Positions 43,687-56,973 of a stretch of 64,000 bases of DNA are shown here, piece after piece. Each line of letters opens with the position of its first letter. The first letter of the stretch is position 1. The stretch is from Actinomycetospora chibensis (GTDB lineage: Bacteria > Actinomycetota > Actinomycetes > Mycobacteriales > Pseudonocardiaceae), in contig NZ_JAQZAM010000002.1 in the NCBI RefSeq assembly GCF_028737215.1, positions 310,001 through 374,000 on the forward strand. The letters are read 5' to 3'. Under the pieces are notes generated by a model. It searched no databases. It saw only the letters and a list, made by a program, of their open reading frames with translations, and was not told where the DNA came from. The position numbers and the translations under genes are program-made.

Positions 43687-46014
43687 TCACGCGGCGGCGC
43701 GAGCGCGGAATCGCCGCAGACGGAGGCTGTTGGCGACGACGAAGACCGAGGAGAAGGCCATCGCCGCACCGGCGAGCATCGGGTTGAGCAACCCCGCAGC
43801 AGCCAGGGGCAGCGCTGCAGTGTTGTAGGCGAACGCCCAGAACAGGTTGCCCTTGATGGTCGACAGTGTGCGGCGGGAGAGCCGGATGGCCTCGACTGCG
43901 GCCCGCAGGTCTCCGCGCACCAGGGTGAGATCACTGGCCTCGATGGCGACATCGGTGCCGGTGCCCATGGCCAACCCCAGGTCGGCGCGCGCGAGCGCGG
44001 CGGCGTCGTTGACACCGTCGCCGACCATGGCCACGACCCGGCCCTCCTTCTGGAGGCGTGCGACCACCTCGTCCTTGTCCGCAGGCATGACCTCGGCGAT
44101 GACCCGCTCACGGTCGATGCCGACCTCGGACGCGACGGCACGAGCGGCCGGCTCCGCGTCGCCGGTGAGCAGGACCGGGGTCAGGCCGAGAGCACGCAGG
44201 CCGCGCACGGCCTCGACACTTCCCTCCTTGACGGTGTCGGCGACGGAGAGGAGACCGCGCGCCGCGCCGTCCCACGCCACCGCCACCACGGTGTGTCCGC
44301 GGGCCTCGGCGTCCGACTTCGCCCCGGCGAGGTCCGCCGGCATGGCCACCGACCAGTCCTCCAGCAGGCGCGGCCGCCCGACGAGGACGGCGTGGCCATC
44401 GACGGTGCCGTGGACCCCGAGTCCCTCGTCGTTGGCGAACTCCTCGATGGGCGGGAGTGGCCGGTCCGAGCGCCCGCGCGCCGCGGCTGCGATGGCCCGG
44501 GCGACGGGGTGCTCCGAGGCGTCCTCGAGGGCGCCGGCAAGGCGGAGCACCTGTGCGGGGTCCTCGCCGTCAGCGGGGTGCACGTCGACCAGCGACATGC
44601 GGCCTTCGGTGATCGTGCCGGTCTTGTCCAGGACGACGGTGTCGACACGACGGGTGGACTCGAGGACCTCCGGGCCTTTGATGAGGATGCCCATCGCTGC
44701 GCCCCGACCGGTGCCGACCATCAACGCCATCGGTGTGGCCAAGCCCAGCGCGCAGGGGCAGGCGATGATCAGGACCGCCACGGCTGCGGTGAACGCCGCC
44801 GCCGCCCCGACCCCAGCGACCAGCCAGAAACCGAGCGTGGCGGCCGCGAGCAGGATGACGATCGGGACGAAGACGCCCGAGACACGGTCGGCCAGACGCT
44901 GGACGGCGGCCTTGCCGGTCTGGGCGTCCTCCACCAGACGCGCCATCTGGGCCAGCTGGGTGTCCGCACCGACCCGCGTCGCACGGACGACGAGACGACC
45001 GCCCGCGTTCACGGTCGCACCGATGACCGCGTCACCGATCCCGACCTCGACGGGCACCGACTCACCGGTGACCATCGAGGCGTCGACCGCCGACGTGCCG
45101 TCCTCGACCTCGCCGTCGGTGGCGATCTTCTCGCCAGGTCGGACGACGAAGCGGTCGCCGACGGCCAGTCGCTCGACCGGAATCCGGCGTTCGACGCCGT
45201 CGCGGAGCACCGCGACGTCCTTGGCGCCGAGCTCGAGCAGCGCGCGCAGGGCGGCTCCGGCGCGGCGCTTGGCCCTGGCCTCGAACCAGCGGCCGGCGAG
45301 GATGAACGTCGTGACCCCGGCCGCGACCTCGAGGTAGATGTTGCCGGCACCGTCGGTCGGTGCGATGGACAGCTCGAACGGGTGGACCATTCCGGGCACG
45401 CCGGCGGTGCCGAGGAAGAGCGCGTAGAGCGACCAGCCGAAGGCGGCGAGGGTGCCGAGCGAGATCAGTGTGTCCATGGTCGCGGTGCCGTGGCGCAGGC
45501 TGGCCCACGCGGCGCGGTGGAAGGGCAGCGCGCCCCACACGATCACCGGGGCGGCGAGCGCGAGCGACGCCCACTGCCAGTACATGAACTGCACCGCTGA
45601 CACCATGGCCAGCACGATCACGGGGATCGAGAGGACGACGGAGACGAGCAGCCGGGTCCGCAGGCTGTCCGCCTCGCTTCCGCGGTTCCCCTCGGCCTCG
45701 GTGCCGTTGGCTTCCGCCGCCGACGGCGGCGCCGGGACGGACGCCGTGTAGCCGGCCGCCTCCACCGCGCCGATCAGATCGCGGGCGCTCACGTCGGACG
45801 TGACGGCGACGCGTGCCTTCTCGGTGGCGAAGTTGACCGTCGCCCGGACTCCGTCGAGCTTGTTGAGCTTGCGCTCGATGCGGTTCGCGCACGAGGCGCA
45901 GGTCATGCCGCCGAGGACGAGCTCGACCTGTGGGGTCGGGGTGTCGTGCTGCTCGGGCGATGCGCCGACGGTGTCTGGGGCGGCCGCGCCGGTGTTCTCG
46001 GTGGCGGTGCTCAT
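43687..46014 (-). CDS. copA: copper-translocating P1B-type ATPase
   Basis: A 775-residue ATPase. N-terminal heavy-metal domain with GMTCASC (C39, C42), membrane helices, the TGES phosphatase loop (MVTGESVPV), the CPC ion site in [13 protein letters not shown] (about 418), the phosphorylation loop DKTGTI (about 463), HP motif in EHPVARA and the hinge [19 protein letters not shown] plus CxxC indicates Cu(I) export out of the cytoplasm. It is the last gene of the csoR operon, after the copper chaperone and an exported protein, so it should be induced by copper through CsoR. Confidence 0.92.
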
Positions 46015-46074: not shown

Positions 46075-47127
46075 TCAGTGGCCATGCGGTGTAGCCGACT
46101 CGTTGTGGCCGCTCGGGGCATCGACCGGCGTCCCGGGACTGGCCGCAGCAACGACCGTGAACTCCGCTGTCCGGACGACGCCTTGATGGGCGAAGTCGAG
46201 GTAGAGCCGGTAGGGACCGGCCGAGGGCACCTCGGCGAGGAACTCGATCGTCGGCCCCGCTGCGGTGCGGCCGTCGCCGGGGTTACCGGTGGGGTGCACG
46301 TGCAGGTACGCGAGGTCGCCGGTGCGGAGTGCGACGAGGTGGCCGTACGCGGCGAGGTAGGGCTGCAGGTCCGTCACGGGAGCTCCGTCCCGCGAGACCG
46401 ACAAGGACAGGGGACTCTCGGTGCCGGGGACGAGGGCGCCCGTGAGCGTCACCGTGTAGCCGTCCGGGGTGGTGGCGGTCGTGGACGGGGGCGGCAGGGG
46501 CACGGGGCGGTAGGTACCGGCGACCGCGATGTCACGGCCGAGGGTCTGCGCCTCGCTGCGCCCGTCCGGCGCGAAGTCCGCGAACACCCGGTGATCGCCG
46601 GCGGCGAGGGACGTCGTGGTGCGCCAGGTGCCGTACGGGTCCATGACCGGGTGGAGGTGCTGGAAGCCGCTCTGGTCGCGTCGCACCAGGATCAGGTGCA
46701 GTGGCTTGTCGTGGGTCGGGGTGAAGGCGGTCACGGGTGCACCGGTCGGGCCCAGGATGCGGAACGCCAGCTCACCGGAGCTGTCTGCCTGCCCCGGGGT
46801 GGCGAGGATGTCGAGGGTGTAGCCGTCCTGCGAGACGGCGAGGCCGCTGACGTCGCTTCCTGCGGCAGGGGCGCCGGGCCCGATCGGCCCCTGCGTCGGT
46901 GCCGGGGCGGGTGGCAGCGCTGCCGCGGGAGCCGGGGTGGGTCCTGCGACCGCGGCGATGCCTCCGCCCACGGCGAGGGCGAGCACCAGCGCGAGGGCGA
47001 ACCCGAGGAGACGGACAGCGGGGCGATCGAGCCGTGATCGCCATGAGGGACGTTCGGTCGCCCGACCCTCCGAGGAATCGCCGGACGCCGTCGAACGCTC
47101 CGTCCTCTCCGGGCTCGTGGTGCTCAC
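46075..47127 (-). CDS. membrane-anchored extracytoplasmic protein of the copper operon
   Basis: GTG at 47127 overlaps the copZ-like stop (GTGA) and has GGGGAGGA upstream. The 350-residue protein has a cytoplasmic charged N-terminus, one membrane helix (LLGFALALVLALAVGGGIAA, about 40-60), a Pro/Ala linker, then two beta-rich domains. These contain KPLHLILVRRDQSGFQHLHPVMDPYGTW and GHLVALRTGDLAYLHVHPTG, and the protein ends in SGHNESATPHGH. Repeated HLHP/HVHP motifs suggest metal binding. Proteins like this are often annotated only as secreted heavy-metal-associated. Likely an external copper holder between CopZ and CopA. Confidence 0.75.
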   Translation of the reverse strand: MSTTSPERTERSTASGDSSEGRATERPSWRSRLDRPAVRLLGFALALVLALAVGGGIAAVAGPTPAPAAALPPAPAPTQGPIGPGAPAAGSDVSGLAVSQDGYTLDILATPGQADSSGELAFRILGPTGAPVTAFTPTHDKPLHLILVRRDQSGFQHLHPVMDPYGTWRTTTSLAAGDHRVFADFAPDGRSEAQTLGRDIAVAGTYRPVPLPPPSTTATTPDGYTVTLTGALVPGTESPLSLSVSRDGAPVTDLQPYLAAYGHLVALRTGDLAYLHVHPTGNPGDGRTAAGPTIEFLAEVPSAGPYRLYLDFAHQGVVRTAEFTVVAAASPGTPVDAPSGHNESATPHGH

Positions 47128-47348
47128 GACGTCCTCCCCGAGCCTTCGAGCTGGTAGCCGGCCTCCTCCACCGCGGCCCGGACCGCGTCGTCGTCGACCG
47201 GGCTCGCCGCCGTCACGACCACACGACCGGTGGCGAGATCGACGTCGACGCCCGACACGCCAGGAACTTCTCCGACCTCTTCCCGCACCGAAGCGACGCA
47301 GTGGTCGCAAGTCATACCGGTCACGGTGTAGGTGCTGGTCTCGCTCAT
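47124..47348 (-). CDS. copZ: heavy-metal-associated (CopZ-like) copper chaperone
   Basis: A 74-residue HMA-domain protein with the metal site GMTCDHC (Cys at about 14 and 17) and the ferredoxin-like pattern ending in AAVEEAGYQLEG. It delivers Cu(I) in the cytoplasm, here presumably to CopA encoded two genes downstream. It lies 125 bp after csoR and overlaps the next gene. Symbol given by family and position. Confidence 0.88.
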   Translation of the reverse strand: MSETSTYTVTGMTCDHCVASVREEVGEVPGVSGVDVDLATGRVVVTAASPVDDDAVRAAVEEAGYQLEGSGRTS

Positions 47349-47473: not shown

Positions 47474-47755
47474 TCAGGACTTGACGAGTCGCGCGATCGC
47501 TGCGCTGGCCTCGGAGATTTTCTCGTTCGCCACGTCGCCGCCCTGCGCGGCTGCCTCGGCCACGCAGTGGCTGAGATGGTCGTCGAGCAGGCCGAGCGCG
47601 ACGTTCTCGAGGGCGCTGGTCGCGGCAGAGACCTGGGTCAGGATGTCGATGCAGTACTTGTCGTCGTCGACCATCTTGGCGATGCCGCGCACCTGCCCCT
47701 CGATGCGGCGCAGCCGCTTCAGGTACGCGTCCTTCTCCGCGGTGTAACCGTTCAT
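47474..47755 (-). CDS. csoR: copper-sensing repressor CsoR
   Basis: ATG at 47755 with GAGAGGAG before it. The 93-residue all-helical protein has the CsoR signature RLRRIEGQVRGI and the three Cu(I) ligands: C35 (KYCIDIL), H60 and C64 (DDHLSHC). With apo-protein bound the operon is off; Cu(I) releases it. It is first in the leftward operon csoR-copZ-unknown-copA. A GC palindrome typical of its operator overlaps its own promoter (47785-47797) and similar ones precede the divergent nuo-like operon. Confidence 0.92.
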   Translation of the reverse strand: MNGYTAEKDAYLKRLRRIEGQVRGIAKMVDDDKYCIDILTQVSAATSALENVALGLLDDHLSHCVAEAAAQGGDVANEKISEASAAIARLVKS

Positions 47756-47784: not shown

Positions 47785-47797
47785 TACCCCTGGGGGT
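47785..47797 (-). promoter_or_regulatory. CsoR-type operator in the csoR promoter
   Basis: TACCCCTGGGGGT is an interrupted palindrome of the CsoR class. On the minus strand a -35 TTGACA lies just upstream (47800-47805) and TATGTT follows the palindrome as -10, so the operator fills the spacer. Confidence 0.75.
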
Positions 47798-47930
47798 TTT
47801 TTGTCAACCGGCGTCCTGCGGGCGATGCCTGGACGGCGCCACTACGGGACGAAGATGCAGCTAGAGGCTGTATCAATCAGTCAAGCGGAGAGGATTCAGG
47901 GCGAGGGCGACATTCACGGACACTTGCTTA

Positions 47931-47984
47931 TGATACCCCTACCCCCTATCTTTCTCGTGGTACGGCTACCCCCTAGGGGTATTG
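47931..47984 (+). promoter_or_regulatory. one good and one partial CsoR-family operator upstream of the nuo-like operon
   Basis: A near-perfect palindrome TACCCCCTAGGGGTA lies at 47967-47981, 30 nt before the TTG start of nuoA. A half-palindromic ATACCCCTACCCCC lies at 47934-47947. Both have the same G/C-run geometry as the csoR site and the site before the CstR-like gene. This places the membrane module under CsoR or the CstR-like regulator. The csoR and nuo promoters are divergent and 180 bp apart. Confidence 0.65.
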
Positions 47985-48011
47985 TCAGAAGCGGTCCAGA
48001 GAGGAGCCGTC

Positions 48012-48362
48012 TTGGATGAGCTGACACCGGCCCTCGTGCTGCTTGCCATCGGCGTACTGCTGGTCGCCGGAGTGCGGGCACTGGCGCGGATTCTCAGCGT
48101 GGCACCGCCGCTGACGAACGTGATGCCGCACGCCGGCGGCTTGCCGCCGCTCGAGCACCCCGTCTCCCGGTTCCACGTCCGTTGGTACGTCGTGACCATG
48201 GTCTTCCTGGCCTTCGACATGGAAATGATCTTCATGTACCCCTGGACCCTGGTCGTCGCCCAGATGGGTCCGGCGGCGGTGGTCGAAATGTTCGGCTTCC
48301 TCGCGCTCCTCATGGCCGGCGTGCTCTACGCCTGGCGCGAGGGGGCCCTCCGATGGACCTGA
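48012..48362 (+). CDS. nuoA: NuoA-like subunit (NADH-quinone oxidoreductase chain 3)
   Basis: TTG at 48012, behind GAGAGGAG, gives a 116-residue protein; a TTG at 47982 lies inside the operator and is less likely. It has three membrane helices and the NuoA loop region (PLEHPVSRFHVRWYVVTMVFLAFDMEMIFMYPW), where FDMEMIFMYPW is the family signature carrying the membrane acidic pair. The usual conserved Cys of the first loop is not present. It opens an eight-gene operon of complex I-like membrane subunits and overlaps the next gene by 10 nt. Confidence 0.85.
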   Translation: MDELTPALVLLAIGVLLVAGVRALARILSVAPPLTNVMPHAGGLPPLEHPVSRFHVRWYVVTMVFLAFDMEMIFMYPWTLVVAQMGPAAVVEMFGFLALLMAGVLYAWREGALRWT

Positions 48363-49459
48363 GGAACGCGCTCCTCCGCGTCGCCGCCCGACGGCCCCAC
48401 GTCCTGATCATCGGCGGCATCGGCACCGATCGACTCCGGGCGCGCGTCGAGCACGAGGTCGACCGCCGCCACTGGACCAATGCGATGGCACCGGCCGACA
48501 CCGACGTCCTCGTCGTCATCGGCCATCCCGGGCCCGAGCTCAGGGCCGTCGTCGACGATGTGTGGGCAACGGTGCCCGCACCCCGCGCCCGGCTCGACGT
48601 CCGGAACGAACACGAGGTCACCACAGCGCTCGACGATGCTGTGACCGTCCTGCAGGATCTCCCGGCCCAAAGGGCTGGGGCGCCTCGCGACGGTCTCCGC
48701 TGGGACCGCCCCAGCGACCCGTCCGGCGCGCACGACCACCACGACGCGCACGACGACGACACCTCCCACGAGCAGGACACCGGGCACGAGGACCACGACG
48801 GCGGGCATCACCACGGCGGCGACATGGAGCTCCCCGGCGGGCTGGCGATGGCCGACCTGGGCGAGGACCGCGACGGGCTCGCCCTCGATCAGCTCCACGT
48901 CCCACTCGGTCCCGTGCTGCCGGAGTGGCCGAGCGGGCTGGTCGTCGATGTCGTCCTGCAGGGCGACGTCATCCACGAGGCACGCTCGCGCTTCGTCGAC
49001 CTCGACGACCTCGATGCCACCGAGCGCCTGCCCGACGCGGCCCGAGCGCTCGACTCCGCGGCGCGCGTCCTTGCCCTCGCCTGCTGGGAAGGCCCCTCCG
49101 CGCGAGCTCGCGGACTGCGGGACGCCCTGCTCTTCGGCGGGAGCAGCACCGCGCGCGTTCTCGAGGAGCTCGACGACCTGCGCCGCCGGGTCCGGCGGTC
49201 GCGGCTCCTGCGGTGGATGCTCCGCTCCGGCGAGGCCGGACGCAGCGAGCTCCTCGAGGCCCTCGACGACAAGCTGCTCTCGGCCAGGGCCGCCGCCGCG
49301 GGGGGCGGCGGAGAGGCACCGGTCGCGATCGACCTCGCGGCGCTCGACGCCCGACTGGTCGGCGCCGAGTTCGCCGCGGCGAGGTTGATCGTCGCCGTCG
49401 CGGACCCGCTGCCACAGCCCGCTCGGACGCGGCCCACGGAACAGGAGGGTGCGTCGTGA
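48353..49459 (+). CDS. degenerate NuoB/NuoD-like subunit with a His-rich linker
   Basis: ATG at 48353. The N-terminal 85 residues (RRPHVLIIGGIG to ADTDVLVVIGHPGPELRAVVDDVW to VPAPRARLDV) follow the NuoB strand pattern but none of the four cluster N2 cysteines is present. Residues about 120-160 are a His/Asp-rich linker (AHDHHDAHDDD, GHHHGGD). After it comes LDQLHVPLGPVLPEWPSGL then VDVVLQGDVI, which resembles the N-terminal sheet of NuoD. The rest is helical. The whole 368-residue protein has a single Cys. It replaces nuoB, C and D in the operon and may be a scaffold. The homology is inferred, not obvious. Confidence 0.55.
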   Translation: MDLRNALLRVAARRPHVLIIGGIGTDRLRARVEHEVDRRHWTNAMAPADTDVLVVIGHPGPELRAVVDDVWATVPAPRARLDVRNEHEVTTALDDAVTVLQDLPAQRAGAPRDGLRWDRPSDPSGAHDHHDAHDDDTSHEQDTGHEDHDGGHHHGGDMELPGGLAMADLGEDRDGLALDQLHVPLGPVLPEWPSGLVVDVVLQGDVIHEARSRFVDLDDLDATERLPDAARALDSAARVLALACWEGPSARARGLRDALLFGGSSTARVLEELDDLRRRVRRSRLLRWMLRSGEAGRSELLEALDDKLLSARAAAAGGGGEAPVAIDLAALDARLVGAEFAAARLIVAVADPLPQPARTRPTEQEGAS

Positions 49460-50400
49460 GCGTCGCACTGCCACTCGGCGGGTCGGTCCTCCTGCCGGCC
49501 CTCCTGCTCGCCGTCACGTGGGCGGCCGTCACCGCCGACGCCGTCGCCGCCGGCCGGGCGGCGGGACGCCCCGTGCCCTGGACCGTCGCCGCCGCACTTC
49601 CCGGGCGCGAGGCCCTCCGACTGCTCGTCGGGCAACGCCGGCGCGGCGTGGCCTCCGACGAGCTGCTGCGCGGCGTCGGTGGCGCGGTCCTCCCGATCGC
49701 CGCGCTGTTGGCCGCTGTGGTTCTCCCGCTCGGGCTGCGCCCCGTGGCGGATCTCGGCGCGGGGATCGTGTGGTTCAACGCGATGGAGGTGTTCGCGTGG
49801 GCCGCGGTGTGGCTGGTCGGGTGGGGCGCCAACAGCACGCTGTCGCTGATCGGTGGTTACCGGTTCGTGGCACAGGGTCTGGCCTGGGAGCTCCCGCACA
49901 TGTTCGCCCTCATCACGGCCGCGGTCGGAGCGCAGAGCCTGCGCGTCACCGACGTGGTCGCCGCCCAGCAGGGCCTGTGGTTCGTCGTGATCATGCCGGT
50001 GGCGTTCGTGGCCTTCCTGCTCAGCGTGGCGGCCATGGCGTTCTGGGGCCCGTTCGGCGCGCCCGTCGGCCGCGACATCGCCGGCGGGGCGGCGGCGGAG
50101 CTCGGGGGGGTCGACAGGCTCGTCTTCATGACCGGACGGTGGCTCCTGCTGGTCGCGGCGGCGGCCATGGCGGTGCCGCTGTTCCTCGGCGGGGGCCACG
50201 GCCCGTGGCTGCCGGCCTGGGCCTGGGTGCTGGTGAAGACCCTGGCCGTGCTCGCGGCGCTCGTTGCGCTGCGCCACCGGATTCCGACCATCCGCATGGA
50301 GCGCTGGACCGAGTTCTCCCTGGTGGTCCTCACGCCGGCCACCATCGCCCAGGCCCTCGTCGTGACCCTCGTCGCGCTCGGCGAAGGAGGCCTCCGATGA
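49456..50400 (+). CDS. nuoH: NuoH-like subunit
   Basis: GTG at 49456 overlapping the previous stop (GTGA). The 314-residue protein has about eight membrane helices and the recognisable middle segment GWGANSTLSLIGGYRFVAQGLAWELPHMFAL, the counterpart of the GWxSNNKYSLLG...EIP region of NuoH. The quinone-site loop that normally reads PFDLPEAEAELVAG is eroded (PVGRDIAGGAAAELGGVD) and the early RxGPN loop is absent. So the fold is kept, but the quinone contact residues are largely lost, in keeping with the degenerate B/D subunit. Confidence 0.8.
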   Translation: MSVALPLGGSVLLPALLLAVTWAAVTADAVAAGRAAGRPVPWTVAAALPGREALRLLVGQRRRGVASDELLRGVGGAVLPIAALLAAVVLPLGLRPVADLGAGIVWFNAMEVFAWAAVWLVGWGANSTLSLIGGYRFVAQGLAWELPHMFALITAAVGAQSLRVTDVVAAQQGLWFVVIMPVAFVAFLLSVAAMAFWGPFGAPVGRDIAGGAAAELGGVDRLVFMTGRWLLLVAAAAMAVPLFLGGGHGPWLPAWAWVLVKTLAVLAALVALRHRIPTIRMERWTEFSLVVLTPATIAQALVVTLVALGEGGLR

Positions 50401-50957
50401 CGACAGCCCTGTTCGTCGTCCTCGCCGTGATCTCCGTCGTGGCCGGCGCGCTGGTCTTCCGCGTCGACTCGATGGCGCGCGCGACGTTCCTGCTGCTGCT
50501 CTCGTTCCTCGCCGTCGCGGGCCTCGTCCTCATGACCGGACTGCAGTACCTCGGCGTGGTCATCGTGCTGATGATGGTCATCGAAATGGTCGTCATGGCC
50601 GTCTTCATGATCATGTACATGATGAACCCGGCCGGGCTCATGCCGATGTCGATGTTCCACAACACCCGCGGCTCCGCCGTCATCGCGGCGACCACCTTCG
50701 TCGCGCTCGCCGGGGGTGCGCTCCTCGTGGACTGGCCGGTCCGAGGCGGCGCGCCGGCACCAGACCTCACGATGGCCCTCGGCGAGAGCCTCATGAGCGG
50801 TCAGATGCTCACGATGATGACATTGGGGGTCACCCTGTTCGCCACGATCGTCGGCACGGTCGTGCTGGCCGCCGGCCGAGGTCGCTACGACCGGCTGGGC
50901 GACGAGCTCGACGCGCCGGAGTCCGACGACCGGGACCGGGGCGGGGTCGGGCGATGA
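50397..50957 (+). CDS. nuoJ: NuoJ-like subunit
   Basis: ATG at 50397 overlapping the nuoH stop. The 186-residue protein has five membrane helices. Helix 3 region reads GLQYLGVVIVLMMVIEMVVMAVFMIMYMM; NuoJ normally has FxGAIxVLxxFVIML here with a pi-bulge, and a Glu (E in MVIEMV) lies in the membrane. The C-terminus is short and acidic. It forms part of the antiporter-like arm with NuoK. Overlaps nuoK by 4 nt. Confidence 0.8.
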   Translation: MTTALFVVLAVISVVAGALVFRVDSMARATFLLLLSFLAVAGLVLMTGLQYLGVVIVLMMVIEMVVMAVFMIMYMMNPAGLMPMSMFHNTRGSAVIAATTFVALAGGALLVDWPVRGGAPAPDLTMALGESLMSGQMLTMMTLGVTLFATIVGTVVLAAGRGRYDRLGDELDAPESDDRDRGGVGR

Positions 50958-51259
50958 ACCTGCAGGCCTTCCTCGTCGTCGCCGCGGCGCTGGTCTCCGT
51001 CGGGCTGTTCGGGGCACTGACCCAGCAGTCGATCGTCATGCTCATGATGGGCCTCGAGCTCCTGCTCAACGGGGTCATCCTCGGGGCGGCGGCGTTCTGG
51101 TACTTCCTGGCGCCGGCCGGCACGGAGGGCCAGGTGCTGATCGTCATCGTGGTCACGGCGATGGCCATCGAGATGGCGGCCGGGTTCGCGGTCACGACCG
51201 CGATCTATCGCGCGAAGCGCATCGACATGACCGACGACGCCGCCGAGCTGCGGGGCTGA
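50954..51259 (+). CDS. nuoK: NuoK-like subunit
   Basis: A 101-residue, three-helix protein. It keeps both membrane glutamates of the family: the one in MLMMGLELLLNGVILG (about residue 35) and the one in MAIEMAAGFAVTTAIYR (about 72). These are homologous to the MrpC subunit and belong to the proton path of complex I. Fully preserved sequence contrasts with the degraded NuoB/D/H features. ATGA overlap with nuoJ and a 2-nt gap to nuoL. Confidence 0.88.
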   Translation: MNLQAFLVVAAALVSVGLFGALTQQSIVMLMMGLELLLNGVILGAAAFWYFLAPAGTEGQVLIVIVVTAMAIEMAAGFAVTTAIYRAKRIDMTDDAAELRG

Positions 51260-51261
51260 CC

Positions 51262-53076
51262 ATGAGCGTTCTCCTCGGCGCCCTGCTGCTCGTCCCCCTC
51301 GCGGCCGGGATCGCGCTGATCGTGGTGCGCCCTCTGCGCTTCGTCGTCCCCGTGGGACTCACGATCGCCGCGGCGACCGTGGGCCTGGCGGTGGCCGCCG
51401 CGCTCCGGCGGCCGCAGGCTCGTTTGCCGCTCTTCGACGGCGTGGCCGTCGGCTTCGCGGTCGACGACCTCTCGGCGGTCATGGTCGTGCTCGTCGCGCT
51501 CGCCCTGCTTGCGGTGCTGGCCTTCGCCGCGGGCGATCCGGCATTGGGGTCGGGACGCTTCGTCGGCCTGGTGCTCGTCTTCGCGGCCGCGATGCTGGCC
51601 ACCGTCACCGCGACCACGCTCCCGCCGCTGCTCGCCGCGTGGGAGGTGATGGGCGCAGTCAGCTGGGCCCTCATCGCCCACCACACCGGCGACCCCGCGG
51701 CGGCCCGCGGCGCGAAAACCGCGTTCCTCACCACGCGCACCGCGGATCTCGGGCTCTACCTCGCCGCAGGTGCGGTGCTCGCGGGCGGCGTGTCGACGCT
51801 CGCGATCGACGCGCTGCCCGACGTGGCCGGTGGGTGGCGGGACCTCGCGGTCGCCGGCATCGTGGTCGCCGCGCTCGGTAAGTCCGCGCAGCTGCCGTTC
51901 AGTTTCTGGCTCTCCGGGGCGATGCACGGGCCGAGCCCGGTGTCGGCGCTGCTGCACTCCGCGACGATGGTCGCCGCCGGGGCCTACCTGCTCCTGCGGA
52001 CGACTGCCGGCCTCGATGCGACCGGGTGGGCCGGGCCCCTGGTGGCGTGGGTCGGCGTGGGGACCGCGCTGTTGCTCGGCCTCGTCGCGCTCGCCCAGAG
52101 CGATCTCAAGCAACTGCTCGCCGCCTCGACGTCCGCGCAGATCGGGTTCATGGTGCTGGCCGCCGGGGTCGGCGCCGTGCCTGGCGGCGTCCTCCAGACC
52201 GTCGCGCACGCCGCGACCAAGAGCCTGCTCTTCCTGGTAGCCGGCGCGTGGCTCGTGCGGGTCGGCACCCGCCGACTCGACGGCCTCCAGGGGGCCGCGC
52301 GCCGATACCCCGTCCTCGGCGCAGCGTTCACTGTCGGCGCCGGGACCCTTGCCGGAGTGCCACCGACCGGTCTGTGGGTGAGCAAGGACGCCGTCCTCGC
52401 GGGCGCGGCGGCGAGCGGCCCTGCGCTCTACATCGTCGGTCTGGCCGCCGGGCTGGTCTCGGCTGGATACGCCGCCAAGGCCGTGTGGTTCGTGTGGCGG
52501 CCGTCGCCTCCCACCGTGCGGGACGGCACCGTCGGACGTGCCGGGGCGCGGGTCCAGGCCGTCGTCGCCGTGACCCTCGCGGTGGCCGCGGCAGGCGCGG
52601 GGCTGCTCGCTCTCGGCCCGGACATCCTCCGGCCGGCTCCCGAGCCGACCGTTCTCGAGCTGGTCGCCTCCGGAGCGATCGCCGTCATCGGTTTCGGGGT
52701 GACGTGGCGCGTGGTCGGCCGGCTCCCGGCCCCTGCGGCACTCCTCTCGTGGCTGCACCTCGAGCAGATCGCTCTCGTGGCTGCGGTCCGGCCGACGCTG
52801 CGGCTCGCCGCCCTGCTCGCCCGCCTCGACGACTCGCTCCACCACCGCGTCGTCCTCGGAGCCGGACGCGGCGTCACGCGTACCGCCGATGAGGTCGACC
52901 GCCACCTCGAGCGCGGCCTGGACCGGGGCGTAGACGGGGTGGCCGCCGGCGCCCGAGCCCTCGGCCGCACCGCCCGCCGGCCCCAGACGGGTCAGCTGCA
53001 CCAGTACTACGCCCAGGCCGCCGTCGCCTTCGGCGTGCTGGCCGCCCTCGCCGTGCTCCTGATCGGGGTGAGCTGA
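51262..53076 (+). CDS. nuoL: NuoL-like antiporter subunit
   Basis: A 604-residue membrane protein. Key proton-path residues are present: Glu in AAWEVMGAVSWALIAHH (about 130), Lys in ALGKSAQLPFSFWLSGAM (about 213), the HSATMVAAGAYLL segment and Lys in AHAATKSLLFLVAG (about 317). The long C-terminal lateral helix of complex I NuoL is present only in altered form, ending with one membrane helix. It is somewhat shorter than E. coli NuoL (613) but complete. With M and N it forms the proton-pumping arm. Confidence 0.88.
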   Translation: MSVLLGALLLVPLAAGIALIVVRPLRFVVPVGLTIAAATVGLAVAAALRRPQARLPLFDGVAVGFAVDDLSAVMVVLVALALLAVLAFAAGDPALGSGRFVGLVLVFAAAMLATVTATTLPPLLAAWEVMGAVSWALIAHHTGDPAAARGAKTAFLTTRTADLGLYLAAGAVLAGGVSTLAIDALPDVAGGWRDLAVAGIVVAALGKSAQLPFSFWLSGAMHGPSPVSALLHSATMVAAGAYLLLRTTAGLDATGWAGPLVAWVGVGTALLLGLVALAQSDLKQLLAASTSAQIGFMVLAAGVGAVPGGVLQTVAHAATKSLLFLVAGAWLVRVGTRRLDGLQGAARRYPVLGAAFTVGAGTLAGVPPTGLWVSKDAVLAGAAASGPALYIVGLAAGLVSAGYAAKAVWFVWRPSPPTVRDGTVGRAGARVQAVVAVTLAVAAAGAGLLALGPDILRPAPEPTVLELVASGAIAVIGFGVTWRVVGRLPAPAALLSWLHLEQIALVAAVRPTLRLAALLARLDDSLHHRVVLGAGRGVTRTADEVDRHLERGLDRGVDGVAAGARALGRTARRPQTGQLHQYYAQAAVAFGVLAALAVLLIGVS

Positions 53077-53078
53077 CC

Positions 53079-54584
53079 GTGCTCTCCGTCCTCGTGTTCC
53101 TTCCCGTCGTCGTCGCGCTCGCGCTCAGCGCGCTGCCGGCCACGAGCACAACGCGCCGCTACACCGTGCCGTGGGTTGTCACCGGACTCGTGCAGCTGGT
53201 GCTCGTCGCCGTCATGTGGCTGCAGCTGCCCACCAGCGGCTACGGATTCGTCGAACAGGTCGCGTGGATCCCGAGCGCCGGCATCTCGTACCACCTCGGG
53301 GTCGACGGGCTCTCGCTGCCGCTCGTGGCGATGACGGTCGTCGTGTTCATCGCGACAGCGATCTACTCGCTGCGCGAGGATCGGCGTCCGAAGTCCTACG
53401 TGCTGCTGTTCCTGGCCCTGCAGACCGTGAGCGTGGGGGTCTTCGTCGCCCTGGATCTGATCCTGTTCTTCCTGTTCTTCGACCTGTCGATCGTGTTCAT
53501 GTACTTCGTCATCGCCGGCTGGGGTCACGGCTCGCGCGCCCGCTCGGCGGCTCTGACGTTCTTCCTCTACACCTTCCTGGGCTCGCTCGCGCTGCTGCTG
53601 GGCTTCATCCTCATCTACCTCGCGGCCACCCCGCACACCTTCGACATCCCGGCGCTCGCCGTCCTCAACCCGCTCGCGGCCGGCGGCCCACTGGCCGGAG
53701 CCGCGCTGCTCGCCATCGGTGTCGGGCTCGCGGTGAAGACCCCGCTCGTGCCTTTCCACACCTGGTTGCCGCCGGCACACACCGAGGCCCCGGCCGCGGG
53801 CTCGGCCGTGCTGGCGGGAGTACTGCTCAAGATGGGGACCTACGGCTTCGTCCGCATCGCGATGCCGCTGCTGCCGGCGTCGTGGCGGCAGTTCGCCGGT
53901 GTGGTCGTGGTGCTCGGCGTGGTCTCGGTCATCTATGGCGCGCTGGTCGCGCTCGCCCAGACCGACCTGAAGCGCATGATCGCCTACACCTCGGTGAACC
54001 ACATGGGCTACGTGCTGCTCGGCGTCGGCGCCGCGGGCCTGGTCGCCGAAACCGATGCGCAGGCTCGGCAGCTCGCCACCACGGGCGCGGTGACCCAGAT
54101 GGTGTCGCACGGGCTGATCACCGGGGCGCTGTTCCTGCTCGCCGGCGCGCTGCACGAACGTGGCCGCACCTACGACATGGGTGCCTACGGCGGCCTGGCG
54201 GCGCGCACGCCGCGGTTCGCCGGCCTGTTCGCGGTAGCGGCCTTCGCCTCACTCGGGCTCCCCGGCTTCTCCGGGTTCATCGCCGAGTTCCAGATCTTCA
54301 CCGGCGCGCTGGGTGCGACGCCGGTGGCGACCGCCATCGCCGTCGTCGGCATCCTCCTCACCGCCGGGCTGTTCCTGGTGGCTCTCTCCCGGATGCTGCT
54401 CGGCGAGCTGCGCTACCCCGACGCACCCGGCACGCCGCGTCCCCTCCCCGACCTCCGGGCTCGCGAGCTCGCGGCCGTCGTCCCGCTGCTCGTGCTCGCC
54501 ACCGTGATCGGGTTGGTACCGCGATTCCTTCTCGACCTGGTCGAGCCCGCGTCGCGGGCGGTCAACGAGCTGGTGGCCCGGTGA
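53079..54584 (+). CDS. nuoM: NuoM-like antiporter subunit
   Basis: GTG at 53079, 2 nt after nuoL. The 501-residue protein shows YHLGVDGLSLPLV, the Lys in VGLAVKTPLVPFHTWLPPAHTEAPAAGSAVLAGVLLKMGTYG with all standard residues, and VNHMGYVLLG. One notable change is at the key membrane acid: where NuoM has Glu in FFEG/FFEV, this protein has FFDLSIVFMYF, Asp at residue 135. An Asp may still carry protons but the change is unusual in this highly conserved position. About 14 helices; otherwise full length. Confidence 0.88.
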   Translation: MLSVLVFLPVVVALALSALPATSTTRRYTVPWVVTGLVQLVLVAVMWLQLPTSGYGFVEQVAWIPSAGISYHLGVDGLSLPLVAMTVVVFIATAIYSLREDRRPKSYVLLFLALQTVSVGVFVALDLILFFLFFDLSIVFMYFVIAGWGHGSRARSAALTFFLYTFLGSLALLLGFILIYLAATPHTFDIPALAVLNPLAAGGPLAGAALLAIGVGLAVKTPLVPFHTWLPPAHTEAPAAGSAVLAGVLLKMGTYGFVRIAMPLLPASWRQFAGVVVVLGVVSVIYGALVALAQTDLKRMIAYTSVNHMGYVLLGVGAAGLVAETDAQARQLATTGAVTQMVSHGLITGALFLLAGALHERGRTYDMGAYGGLAARTPRFAGLFAVAAFASLGLPGFSGFIAEFQIFTGALGATPVATAIAVVGILLTAGLFLVALSRMLLGELRYPDAPGTPRPLPDLRARELAAVVPLLVLATVIGLVPRFLLDLVEPASRAVNELVAR

Positions 54585-54627
54585 AGGCCGAGTCGGCGCC
54601 GTCAGCGCCCCGTCAGGGGGAGCAGCC

Positions 54628-56034
54628 ATGGTGATGATGAACGAGGACCCCACGACAATGATCCCCGAGCTGGCGCTGCTCGCGGGGGCGGTGCTCGCCG
54701 TGCTCGTCGGGGCGTGGACACCGCGCCGCAGGCAGGGTCGCGTACGGGTCCTCGCGCTGGTCGCCGTGAGCGGCGGACTGGTCGCCACGGTCGTGGCCGC
54801 GACGAAGCCGTCGAGCACCACCTTCGATACCTACGTCCTCGACACGACGACCCACGCGGTGCGCGCGATCGTGCTCGTCGCCGTCGCCCTGATCCTGTGG
54901 TGGTCGCGCGACGCCGTCACGGCGCATCCGCGCGAGAGCGAGTTCACCGCGCTCGTCCTGCTCGGCGGTCTCGGAGCGGTGCTGATGGCCGGGACCGGCG
55001 ATCTCATGCTGCTCTTCGCCGCGTTCCTGCTCGCCAGCGTGCCGCTCTACGCCCTGGCCGGCTGGGCCAAGACGGGCGCGACCACCGAGGCCGCGCTGAA
55101 GTACTACCTCTCCGGCGCCTTCGCCGGAGTCACAATGCTCGCCGGCACCACCCTGATGTACGGAGCTACCGGCTCGACGAGCTACAACGCCTTGCCCGAG
55201 GGGCTCGTGACGGGCGCGGCGGGGCCAGCAGCCGTCGGCCTCGTCGCCGTGCTGGCGGGCCTGGCGTTCAAGGCCGGAGCCGTCCCCGCCCACTTCTGGG
55301 TCCCTGACGTCACCGACGGCACGCCTCCGGCGGTCGCCGCCGTCCTCACGACCATCCCCAAGATCGGTGCGCTGGCCGCGACGTGGCGTCTCCTCCTGGC
55401 CGTGCCCGAGCAGATCGTGCCCTGGCCGTTGCTGGTCGCGGTGCTCGCCGCGATCAGCATGACCCTGGGCAACCTCGCCGCGTTCGCTCAGACGTCGGTC
55501 CTGCGGCTGCTCGCCTACTCGACCGTGTCCCAGGTGGGCTACGTGTTGATGATCATCGCCGTGGCGGCCCGGACGCCCGAGGCCCAGCCGGCCCTGCTCT
55601 TCTATCTCGCCGCCTACGCGCTCACGAACATCGGGGCCTTCGCCGTGGTCGCGGCACACCCTGCTCGCACCATCGACGAGTTCCGAGGGCTCGGCCGTCG
55701 TCGCCCCCTGCTCGCGGCCGCCCTTGTCGTCTGCCTGCTCGGGCTCGTGGGCACACCTCCCACGGCAGTGTTCGTCGGCAAGCTCACCGCGTTCGCTGCC
55801 GCCTTCGACGGCGGGATGGCCTGGCTCGTCGTGCTCGCCGCGGTCAACACCGTGGCCTCGCTCTTCTACTACCTGCGATGGGTCGCCCCGCTGTACCGGG
55901 ACGAGCCGCCCGAGCTCGCCGACGTGAGCAGCGAATCCCGCACGGCGCGCCAGGGCGCGGTCACCGCCGCGACTCTCTCGCTGGTCCTCGGCGTCGCCGC
56001 CGGCCTGATCCTGCCCCTGTTCGCCGCCTCGTGA
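54628..56034 (+). CDS. nuoN: NuoN-like antiporter subunit
   Basis: ATG at 54628 with GGGGGAG before it. The 468-residue protein has about 14 membrane helices and the NuoN segments TTEAALKYYLSGAFAG, LAFKAGAVPAHFWVPDVTDGTPPAVAAVL (Lys on the proton path) and LAYSTVSQVGYVLM. It completes the operon A-(B/D)-H-J-K-L-M-N. There are no nuoE, F, G, I genes anywhere in the window, so there is no visible NADH, FMN or iron-sulfur part. The following gene is convergent. Confidence 0.88.
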   Translation: MVMMNEDPTTMIPELALLAGAVLAVLVGAWTPRRRQGRVRVLALVAVSGGLVATVVAATKPSSTTFDTYVLDTTTHAVRAIVLVAVALILWWSRDAVTAHPRESEFTALVLLGGLGAVLMAGTGDLMLLFAAFLLASVPLYALAGWAKTGATTEAALKYYLSGAFAGVTMLAGTTLMYGATGSTSYNALPEGLVTGAAGPAAVGLVAVLAGLAFKAGAVPAHFWVPDVTDGTPPAVAAVLTTIPKIGALAATWRLLLAVPEQIVPWPLLVAVLAAISMTLGNLAAFAQTSVLRLLAYSTVSQVGYVLMIIAVAARTPEAQPALLFYLAAYALTNIGAFAVVAAHPARTIDEFRGLGRRRPLLAAALVVCLLGLVGTPPTAVFVGKLTAFAAAFDGGMAWLVVLAAVNTVASLFYYLRWVAPLYRDEPPELADVSSESRTARQGAVTAATLSLVLGVAAGLILPLFAAS

Positions 56035-56486: not shown

Positions 56487-56870
<384 letters not shown>

Positions 56871-56958
56871 TCCGGACCTGACCCGCAGGACCACCGGCGG
56901 ACCGCTCGACACTTCAGGCGCCACCGCCGACACCCGACCGACTCAGCAACGGTAGATA

Positions 56959-56973
56959 CCCTACCGGGTAGGG
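56959..56973 (+). promoter_or_regulatory. CstR-type operator at the dioxygenase start
   Basis: CCCTACC-G-GGTAGGG, perfect 7-bp arms around one base, ending 7 nt before the ATG at 56981, overlapping the ribosome binding site. The preceding gene ends 88 nt upstream, so a separate promoter for the sulfur operon is likely here. Confidence 0.7.

Follow-up and report, generated by a model that had tools for sequence, protein, structure and literature searches.

We propose that an operon of complex-I-like genes in Actinomycetospora chibensis belongs to the copper regulon of a CsoR repressor of the RicR type, and that its product is a proton-arm-like ion mover free of redox chemistry. Taken as a whole, we regard this account as probable. 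It draws on predicted operator sites, their spacer class, a promoter footprint, gene linkage and the absence of conserved cysteines, all of which are visible in sequence, and leaves repressor binding, copper induction, assembly, ion transport and metal binding as inferences. The window referred to throughout is the whole 64,000-nucleotide stretch of DNA that was analysed. Its regulatory features are as follows, with N4 or N5 giving the spacer between the two arms of a site.

47477 to 47755 (about), minus strand: csoR, a RicR-like copper repressor
47785 to 47799, minus strand: imperfect operator before csoR, TACCCCTGGGGGTT (on the minus strand AAACCCCCAGGGGTA), one mismatch as TACCC-N4-GGGTA
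47924 to 47929, plus strand: inferred -35 hexamer, TTGCTT, from the comparison of seven closely related operons
47934 to 47948, plus strand: predicted operator site 1 (partial), TACCCCTACCCCCTA, inside the promoter spacer
47947 to 47952, plus strand: inferred -10 hexamer, TATCTT, from the same seven-operon comparison
47967 to 47981, plus strand: predicted operator site 2 (full), TACCCCCTAGGGGTA, from motif, genome and relative comparisons and the Streptomyces lividans copZA1/copZA2 15-mer
56543 to 56556, plus strand: TACCCCCTGGGGTA, a CstR-class operator (TACCC-N4-GGGTA) before the CstR-like gene
56604 to 56870, plus strand: CstR-like repressor (PF02583; alignment)
56957 to 56970, plus strand: second CstR-class site, TACCCTACCGGGTA, before an MBL-fold/rhodanese gene (56981)

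The original prediction had put CsoR-family operators in front of the nuo-like operon, csoR and the CstR-like gene, and all four sites are present where it placed them (47785 on, 47934-47948, 47967-47981 and 56543-56556). Its view that they have the same form is only partly right, since the spacer is N4 in the site of the CstR-like gene and N5 in the nuo site; the site before csoR, an imperfect one, agrees better with N4 (one mismatch) than with N5. Site 2 meets the CsoR/RicR-type (type 2) operator form, TAC-X9-GTA with C/G tracts. Site 1 lacks that full form here, where it ends in CTA, and has it in two of seven relatives (L046 and L048).

Allowing up to three mismatches, TACCCCCTAGGGGTA has four matches in the window (three places, one of them on both strands) against 0.29 expected, a number reached by none of 100 shuffles. 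Within the window by itself, the looser pattern TACCCCNNNGGGGTA with up to two mismatches did not reach significance (3 occurrences against an expectation of 1.18, equalled by 15 of 100 shuffles). Across the 6.18-Mb genome, exact TACCCCNNNGGGGTA (TACCCC-N3-GGGGTA) occurs in five places and its reversed control in none, and with two mismatches the pattern is near background (103 versus 79). The exact 15-mer TACCCCCTAGGGGTA has two copies genome-wide, while TACCC-N4/5-GGGTA is found in 11 places (8 N5 and 3 N4), compared with 3 for the reversed control.

Seven operons, namely that in the window, a second copy on contig C54 of the same genome and L045 to L049, share a footprint of TTGnnn, exactly 17 nt and TAYCKT, with a full N5 site that starts 13 to 15 nt past TAYCKT and ends 23 to 47 nt before the start codon. 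The arrangement TTGnnn-17-TAYCKT occurs in only 1 of the other 75 loci. What had been called a partial site is better described as a conserved element, ACCCCTACCYCSTA, that fills the 17-nt spacer in all seven operons and whose right end reaches into the inferred -10. Our inference is that site 1 is only partial because its right arm must double as the -10. Site 2 would then lie at roughly +8 to +23 relative to the inferred transcription start. The seven operons are close relatives, the promoter is deduced from sequence, and a consensus promoter scan chose a different promoter. In a study of S. lividans CsoR, the protein failed to bind a half site in vitro (PMC3902906), and site 1 may therefore not bind alone.

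These sites might serve the divergent csoR only, leaving the nuo-like operon as a constitutive neighbor. The intergenic region between csoR and nuoA is indeed common to both genes here and in several relatives, and in Pseudonocardia loci L052 and L055 the sole perfect site is closer to csoR. Set against this, csoR has its own site 30 bp from its start (placed at the ATG at 47755 because a Shine-Dalgarno sequence precedes that codon), and site 2 ends 30 bp before nuoA but lies 212 bp from csoR. Loci L046 to L049 have two separate perfect sites, one of them 39 to 63 bp before nuoA; in L114 a perfect site stands 44 bp before nuoA, with no csoR in the short stretch available; and on the Curtobacterium plasmid pC1a a perfect N5 site stands 38 bp before nuoA, between copA and nuoA. 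We consider it improbable that the operon is merely a bystander and continue with the reading that it belongs to the copper regulon.

The operon is embedded in a copper-resistance island. To the left of csoR, and on the same strand, lie three further genes:

43687 to 46014, minus strand: copA-type heavy-metal P-type ATPase
46075 to 47127, minus strand: unnamed 350-aa gene between copZ and copA
47124 to 47348, minus strand: copZ-like heavy-metal-associated protein (PF00403, E 1.1e-16)

The ATPase has homologues in relatives and a C54 paralogue with E1-E2_ATPase, Hydrolase and HMA matches; its copper specificity is taken from context. The 350-aa gene is conserved, and its C54 copy (L012:7461-8519) has no Pfam match. 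To the right of the operon are genes for DUF302, the CstR-like repressor, an MBL-fold/rhodanese protein, a rhodanese, TauE, a rhodanese-like ORF and a multicopper oxidase. Given the second N4 site in front of the MBL-fold/rhodanese gene, the sulfur genes next to the copper island seem to be an N4 regulon of their own. The second island copy on C54 (L012, 3000-17000) carries the nuo-like operon, csoR, the 350-aa gene, copA and DUF305 in mirror order, with an ORF2 (the second gene of the operon) that is 76% identical and with its own N5 sites and csoR.

Six of the eight genomic N5 sites precede the window operon (C22), the C54 copy, a second csoR, a copA on C23, a gene for an HMA protein on C51 and a DUF4396 gene on C22. 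One N5 site, on C2, falls by eye inside an apparent coding sequence. Of the N4 sites, two precede the CstR-like gene and the MBL-fold/rhodanese gene, and the third is on C23. From its repressor sites together with its place inside the copper-resistance island, we conclude that the operon is probably switched on by copper.

At L010:8772-9397 an exact TACCCCCTAGGGGTA and a one-mismatch operator precede the DUF4396 membrane protein gene, beside a DUF305 gene, and this gene is likely a further CsoR target. The site on C44, TACCCCCTGAGGGTA, is at or just upstream of the 5' end of a membrane-protein frame (L013:2604-3341); it is possibly an extra copper target, or chance.

The closest named relative of the window ORF2 is that of Actinomycetospora callitridis (89% identity), and ORF2 is present in 37 of 150 genomes of the bacterial family. 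We compared 80 loci, the closest 80 of 234 from a species-genome collection, all from Actinomycetota. Because they are the closest, copper linkage across the whole operon family may be lower than in this sample, and because some of the loci are short, linkage may also have been missed. The 27.7 kb upstream of nuoA contain 20 perfect N5 sites, spread over 15 of the 80 loci, and the 1553 kb elsewhere contain 30. No perfect site with any other spacer (N1-N9) was found upstream of nuoA in the 80 loci, and 65 of them have no perfect site there. Eight of the 15 loci with perfect N5 sites have one within 80 bp of nuoA, and in several others it lies in the intergenic region shared with csoR. When the regions upstream of nuoA in the 80 loci were scanned for dyads without a preset motif, TACCC-N5-GGGTA came out on top among 6711; it is present in 14 loci where 0.48 would be expected (Bonferroni 1.7e-12, a value that ignores kinship and is too small because the loci share ancestry). 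Within 320 bp upstream of nuoA in 30 loci of the bacterial family, the exact form was present in four and a one-mismatch form in two, with no site at zero or one mismatch in the remaining 24.

Matches to CsoR (55% identity or more) or CopA (65% or more) lie near the operon in 31 of the 80 loci, and operator and linkage co-occur (12 of 15 loci versus 19 of 65; Fisher p 7e-4, kinship ignored). With laxer limits, 34 loci are copper-linked and 46 have no CsoR or CopA match nearby. The genes can be very close: in L027, L028 and L031 (3 of the 30 family loci) the CopA match ends at 1115-1133 and the nuoA start is estimated at 1145-1154, and in L050, L053, L065 and L080 copA ends on the same strand 123 to 198 bp before nuoA. 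Mapped onto a NuoM tree of 87 rows, copper linkage requires 19 changes and is clustered (none of 500 shuffles was as low); matched operator/linkage pairs on this tree number only six, with a median p of 0.25. The tree excludes L049, L053, L093, L095 and L114, from which no NuoM was recovered, and plasmids L194 and L198.

We found no common neighbor in the copper-free loci, where the commonest Pfam families each account for 3 of 81 proteins; this test took the nearest gene up- and downstream by a rough GC3 rule in 44 of 46 loci and covered 81 of 170 neighbor proteins. Without a strongly recurrent neighbor family in the unlinked loci, we take the copper link to be a property of part of the operon family. 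Nothing strong emerged as another shared operator in the 46 copper-free loci (best dyad in 3 loci, Bonferroni 0.05). In Actinomadura, a CCTAC-N5-GTAGG dyad occurs upstream of nuoA in L077, L091, L097 and L108, and TCCTA-N7-TAGGA does so in L077, L091, L093 and L108, possibly reflecting a different regulator in that genus.

The operon also resides on plasmids. Fifteen carry ORF2 relatives, and we analysed 12, omitting H4, H6 and H8 (Mycobacterium avium) as likely repeats of H5. The operon lies near copper-type genes on 6 of the 12. Metal genes are nearby on 7. Six of these have a heavy-metal P-type ATPase, in one case together with an ArsR-type regulator of unknown metal, and the seventh has a multicopper oxidase, DUF305 and a sulfocyanin-like protein. 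Plasmids of Pseudonocardia alni and P. autotrophica carry, in order, a heavy-metal ATPase, an HMA protein, a metal-sensitive regulator, the operon and DUF305, with a perfect N5 site 293 bp and 287 bp before nuoA, respectively. Curtobacterium pC1a has a multicopper oxidase, DUF305, a metal-sensitive regulator, an HMA protein and the ATPase ahead of the operon, and after it a second metal-sensitive regulator with rhodanese, DsrE and TauE. In M. avium and M. intracellulare plasmids the ATPase and HMA protein are close, with N5 sites in that region, and Arthrobacter FB24 plasmid 1 has the order sulfocyanin-like protein, DUF305, multicopper oxidase, operon, with no N5 site in the stretch examined. 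On a Mycobacterium paragordonae plasmid (L200, 296-10756), an ArsR-type regulator and a heavy-metal P-type ATPase come after the operon, so metals other than copper may be part of the link as well. Copper-type genes were absent from the stretches examined in Rhodococcus oxybenzonivorans, Gordonia, Ornithinimicrobium, Pseudarthrobacter and R. pyridinivorans, for which the gene tables are incomplete; among these five, an ArsR/SmtB gene (L198) and BlaI/MecI/CopY-type regulators (L194) are within reach. The operon is apparently interrupted or incomplete in the gene tables of L194, L198 and L199. That metal islands travel with the operon argues for a role in metal stress.

The operon itself comprises relatives of nuoA, ORF2 and relatives of nuoH, J, K, L, M and N (48012-56034, plus strand), with ends that mostly touch or overlap:

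48012 to 48362, plus strand: nuoA-like gene (TTG start; Shine-Dalgarno-like sequence at 48000-48006; PF00507, E 5.3e-25)
48353 to 49459, plus strand: ORF2, a NuoB-like domain, a His-rich linker and a NuoD-like domain
49456 to 50400, plus strand: nuoH-like gene (PF00146, E 9.4e-36)
50397 to 50957, plus strand: nuoJ-like gene (PF00499)
50954 to 51259, plus strand: nuoK-like gene (PF00420)
51262 to 53076, plus strand: nuoL-like gene (PF00361)
53079 to 54584, plus strand: nuoM-like gene (PF00361; TIGR01972 above cut-off)
54628 to 56034, plus strand: nuoN-like gene (PF00361)

The eight proteins gave no match to the NuoE, NuoF, NuoG or NuoI families at E 0.01, and none to the MrpE, MrpF or MrpG subunits. 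Description of the operon as a proton arm suits its membrane subunits A, H, J, K, L, M and N, but not its second gene, a NuoB/NuoD relative that is apparently redox-dead. ORF2 has no Pfam or NCBIfam match, and a profile of 40 of its relatives matches NuoB over 38 residues (E 7e-6). An AlphaFold model (pLDDT 82.8, pTM 0.80) predicts two domains joined by a His-rich linker of low confidence at residues of about 118-157. The best Foldseek matches of the first modeled domain are NuoB (E 0.015, probability 1.00), with none at E of 0.001 or below. The second (residues 167-357) aligns to NuoD and HycE with Z of about 12, over 178 to 182 residues at an rmsd of 3.1 to 3.3 in the top three rows. The comparison tool warns that a Z of this size can arise between unrelated helical bundles; all 50 structure rows listed for this domain are complex-I-type or related respiratory assemblies.

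There is no conserved cysteine among the invariant or nearly invariant columns of 40 ORF2 sequences, and the window ORF2 holds a single Cys; in complex I, NuoB supplies Cys ligands to cluster N2. By eye, the NuoD-like part lacks the quinone-contact His. In the NuoH stretch that we take to be the acidic quinone-side loop (PEAE/PFD), none of the 20 nuo-like rows retains the glutamates of PEAE, whose places are taken by other residues; 10 of the 20 still have the Asp of PFD and 19 a later Glu, and the TM1 Glu-Arg is missing in all 19 rows with data. The antiporter-like subunits give a mixed picture at what we assume to be their conserved Lys/Glu positions (the residue roles in NuoB, D, H, L, M and N are assumed in general): NuoL retains its charged residues, NuoM its TM7 Lys in 20 of 20 rows, with one Glu present as Asp in the window protein, and NuoN has lost one conserved Glu (TM5). 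From the cysteine and NuoH-loop losses together with the retained NuoL and NuoM residues, we interpret the product as a translocator of protons or cations that performs no redox chemistry. Ion transport is inferred here, and we would put the case for a redox-dead complex-I-like translocator at about evenly balanced.

The His-rich linker is found in many ORF2 members and is absent in the copper-linked L080 and L092. His-richness is weakly higher in copper-linked loci (medians 11 and 7, p 0.03), and we dismissed it as a marker of copper linkage.

The linkage of the operon to copA, copZ and csoR, together with that linker, leaves room for a copper exporter in which the NuoL/M/N-like subunits would swap Cu(I), donated by the His-rich protein, for protons. 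We find this unlikely, since NuoL and NuoM retain charged proton-channel residues and many relatives have no copper linkage, with the caveat that there was no systematic look for a copper path. Still less convincing is a safety plug, in which the NuoB/NuoD-like fusion would replace or cap the canonical complex I subunits when copper destroys Fe-S clusters. A canonical complex I is present in the genome, with one canonical NuoD and one canonical NuoH on contig C5, and ORF2 has both the B and D folds, but the operon supplies membrane subunits of its own (A, H, J, K, L, M and N) and its NuoH is 27.9% identical to the canonical one. A stand-alone translocator under copper control remains our preferred reading.

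Which repressor acts on the operon can be addressed through the two PF02583 proteins of the window. The window CsoR, a PF02583 match in a search of its own genome, has RicR as its best NCBIfam model at 160 bits, below the curated cut-off of 175, and among solved structures S. lividans CsoR is the best match (4adz, E 2.1e-31). Its Cys-His-Cys positions (Cys and His/Cys), presumably the copper ligands, align with those of S. lividans CsoR. The CstR-like protein retains the two Cys and has Gly in place of the CsoR ligand His in the alignment. Spacer length was compared over 300 bp upstream of 30 CstR-like and 30 CsoR genes, which were the best matches returned within the bacterial family and thus not a random sample. 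TACCC-N4-GGGTA precedes 28 of the 30 CstR loci (22 perfect, 6 with one mismatch; none in 2), and N5 sites precede 25 of the 30 CsoR loci (N2 in one, no site in 4). One of those 25 is the nuo site of the window itself (L155), which leaves a clean count of 24 of 29 other loci. Published S. lividans CsoR operators have the form TAC-X9-GTA with a 5-nt spacer, and two of three CsoR-bound operators, copZA1 and copZA2, contain exactly TACCCCCTAGGGGTA (PMC3902906, Table 1).

The nuo sites have N5 spacing like CsoR sites and unlike the N4 sites of CstR, so we assign them to copper and not to persulfide. The suggestion of control by a copper or persulfide repressor is accordingly narrowed to its first half, in favor of which we count the N5 spacing, the identity with CsoR-bound operators, the S. 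lividans-like CsoR, the second operon copy with its own site and csoR, and the recurrent linkage to copper genes on chromosomes and plasmids. Without binding or expression data, regulation of the nuo-like operon by CsoR stays a prediction, and one that we hold to be highly probable. Likewise, of the proposed tie to metal and sulfur stress, the copper part is well supported and the sulfur or persulfide part is not for this operon. Persulfide control by the CstR-like protein, which would link the operon to sulfide stress and which could appeal to the CstR-like gene, MBL-fold/rhodanese, TauE and rhodaneses directly downstream and to the comparable genes on pC1a, is the least credible alternative and was rejected through the N4/N5 split: the nuo site is N5 and none of the 80 loci has an N4 site (zero or one mismatch) in the 350 bp ahead of nuoA, which does not exclude cross-talk.

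The mechanism that we envisage for the copper-regulated operon is as follows. In the absence of copper, CsoR would occupy the full site just downstream of the transcription start and block RNA polymerase, perhaps binding the partial site in the promoter spacer too. CsoR loaded with Cu(I) would depart, and the operon would be expressed alongside the other copper genes. Its product would be a membrane complex resembling the complex I proton arm, capped on the cytoplasmic side by the NuoB/NuoD-like fusion without electron transfer, and would move protons or other cations without a redox reaction. Such a complex could maintain ion balance or proton motive force while copper harms the respiratory chain, and the His-rich linker may sense or buffer metal. 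How the operon benefits copper resistance remains open, as do the direction, ion and energy source of translocation.

Copper regulons known so far consist, to our knowledge, of exporters, chaperones, oxidases and metallothioneins. We found no report of a copper-repressed complex-I-like operon in the open-access literature, which leaves subscription papers mostly uncovered. If the proposal is correct, copper resistance would come to include ion or proton transport, through an operon whose seven complex-I-type membrane subunits are controlled by a copper repressor, and an inducible complex-I-like arm without a redox part would be useful for studying the antiporter-like subunits alone. Stated more broadly, and with somewhat less than even confidence, actinobacterial chromosomes and plasmids may carry an undescribed component of copper resistance, a copper-derepressed and redox-dead relative of complex I in which one fused protein, with a linker that is often His-rich and possibly binds metal, replaces the Fe-S and quinone subunits, and in which copper state, not NADH or quinone, runs or gates the proton arm.

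Among known systems, the operon resembles the S. lividans CsoR regulon (csoR, copZA1 and copZA2) in the copZA1/copZA2 operator 15-mer, the TAC-X9-GTA form and the closest solved CsoR, and it differs in that the three sites published there, as far as the paper is accessible, lie at csoR and two copZA operons, none of them complex-I-like (PMC3902906). RicR of Mycobacterium tuberculosis is a copper-sensing CsoR-family repressor with several scattered targets, and those named in the accessible part of the source (mymT, lpqS, rv2963, socAB, mmcO and ricR) include no nuo-type genes (PMC10961391). No NCBIfam model matches the window CsoR better than RicR, yet the protein falls short of that model's cut-off. 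With respiratory complex I (NDH-1) the operon shares subunits A, H, J, K, L, M and N and the B and D folds; unlike NDH-1 it lacks NuoE, F, G and I, its B-like part has no conserved Cys, its D-like part is shortened (about 180 aligned residues) and its NuoH loop glutamates are lost. Archaeal MBS/MBH complexes and formate hydrogenlyase, whose B- and D-like folds are among the structural matches of ORF2, carry metal centers, in contrast to ORF2 with its lack of conserved cysteines. Mrp cation/proton antiporters are similar in having NuoL/M/N-type subunits without redox partners, and Mrp models are among the weaker NCBIfam matches of the operon L, M and N proteins; the operon departs from them in matching no other Mrp subunits and in possessing NuoA, NuoH and the B/D-like fusion.
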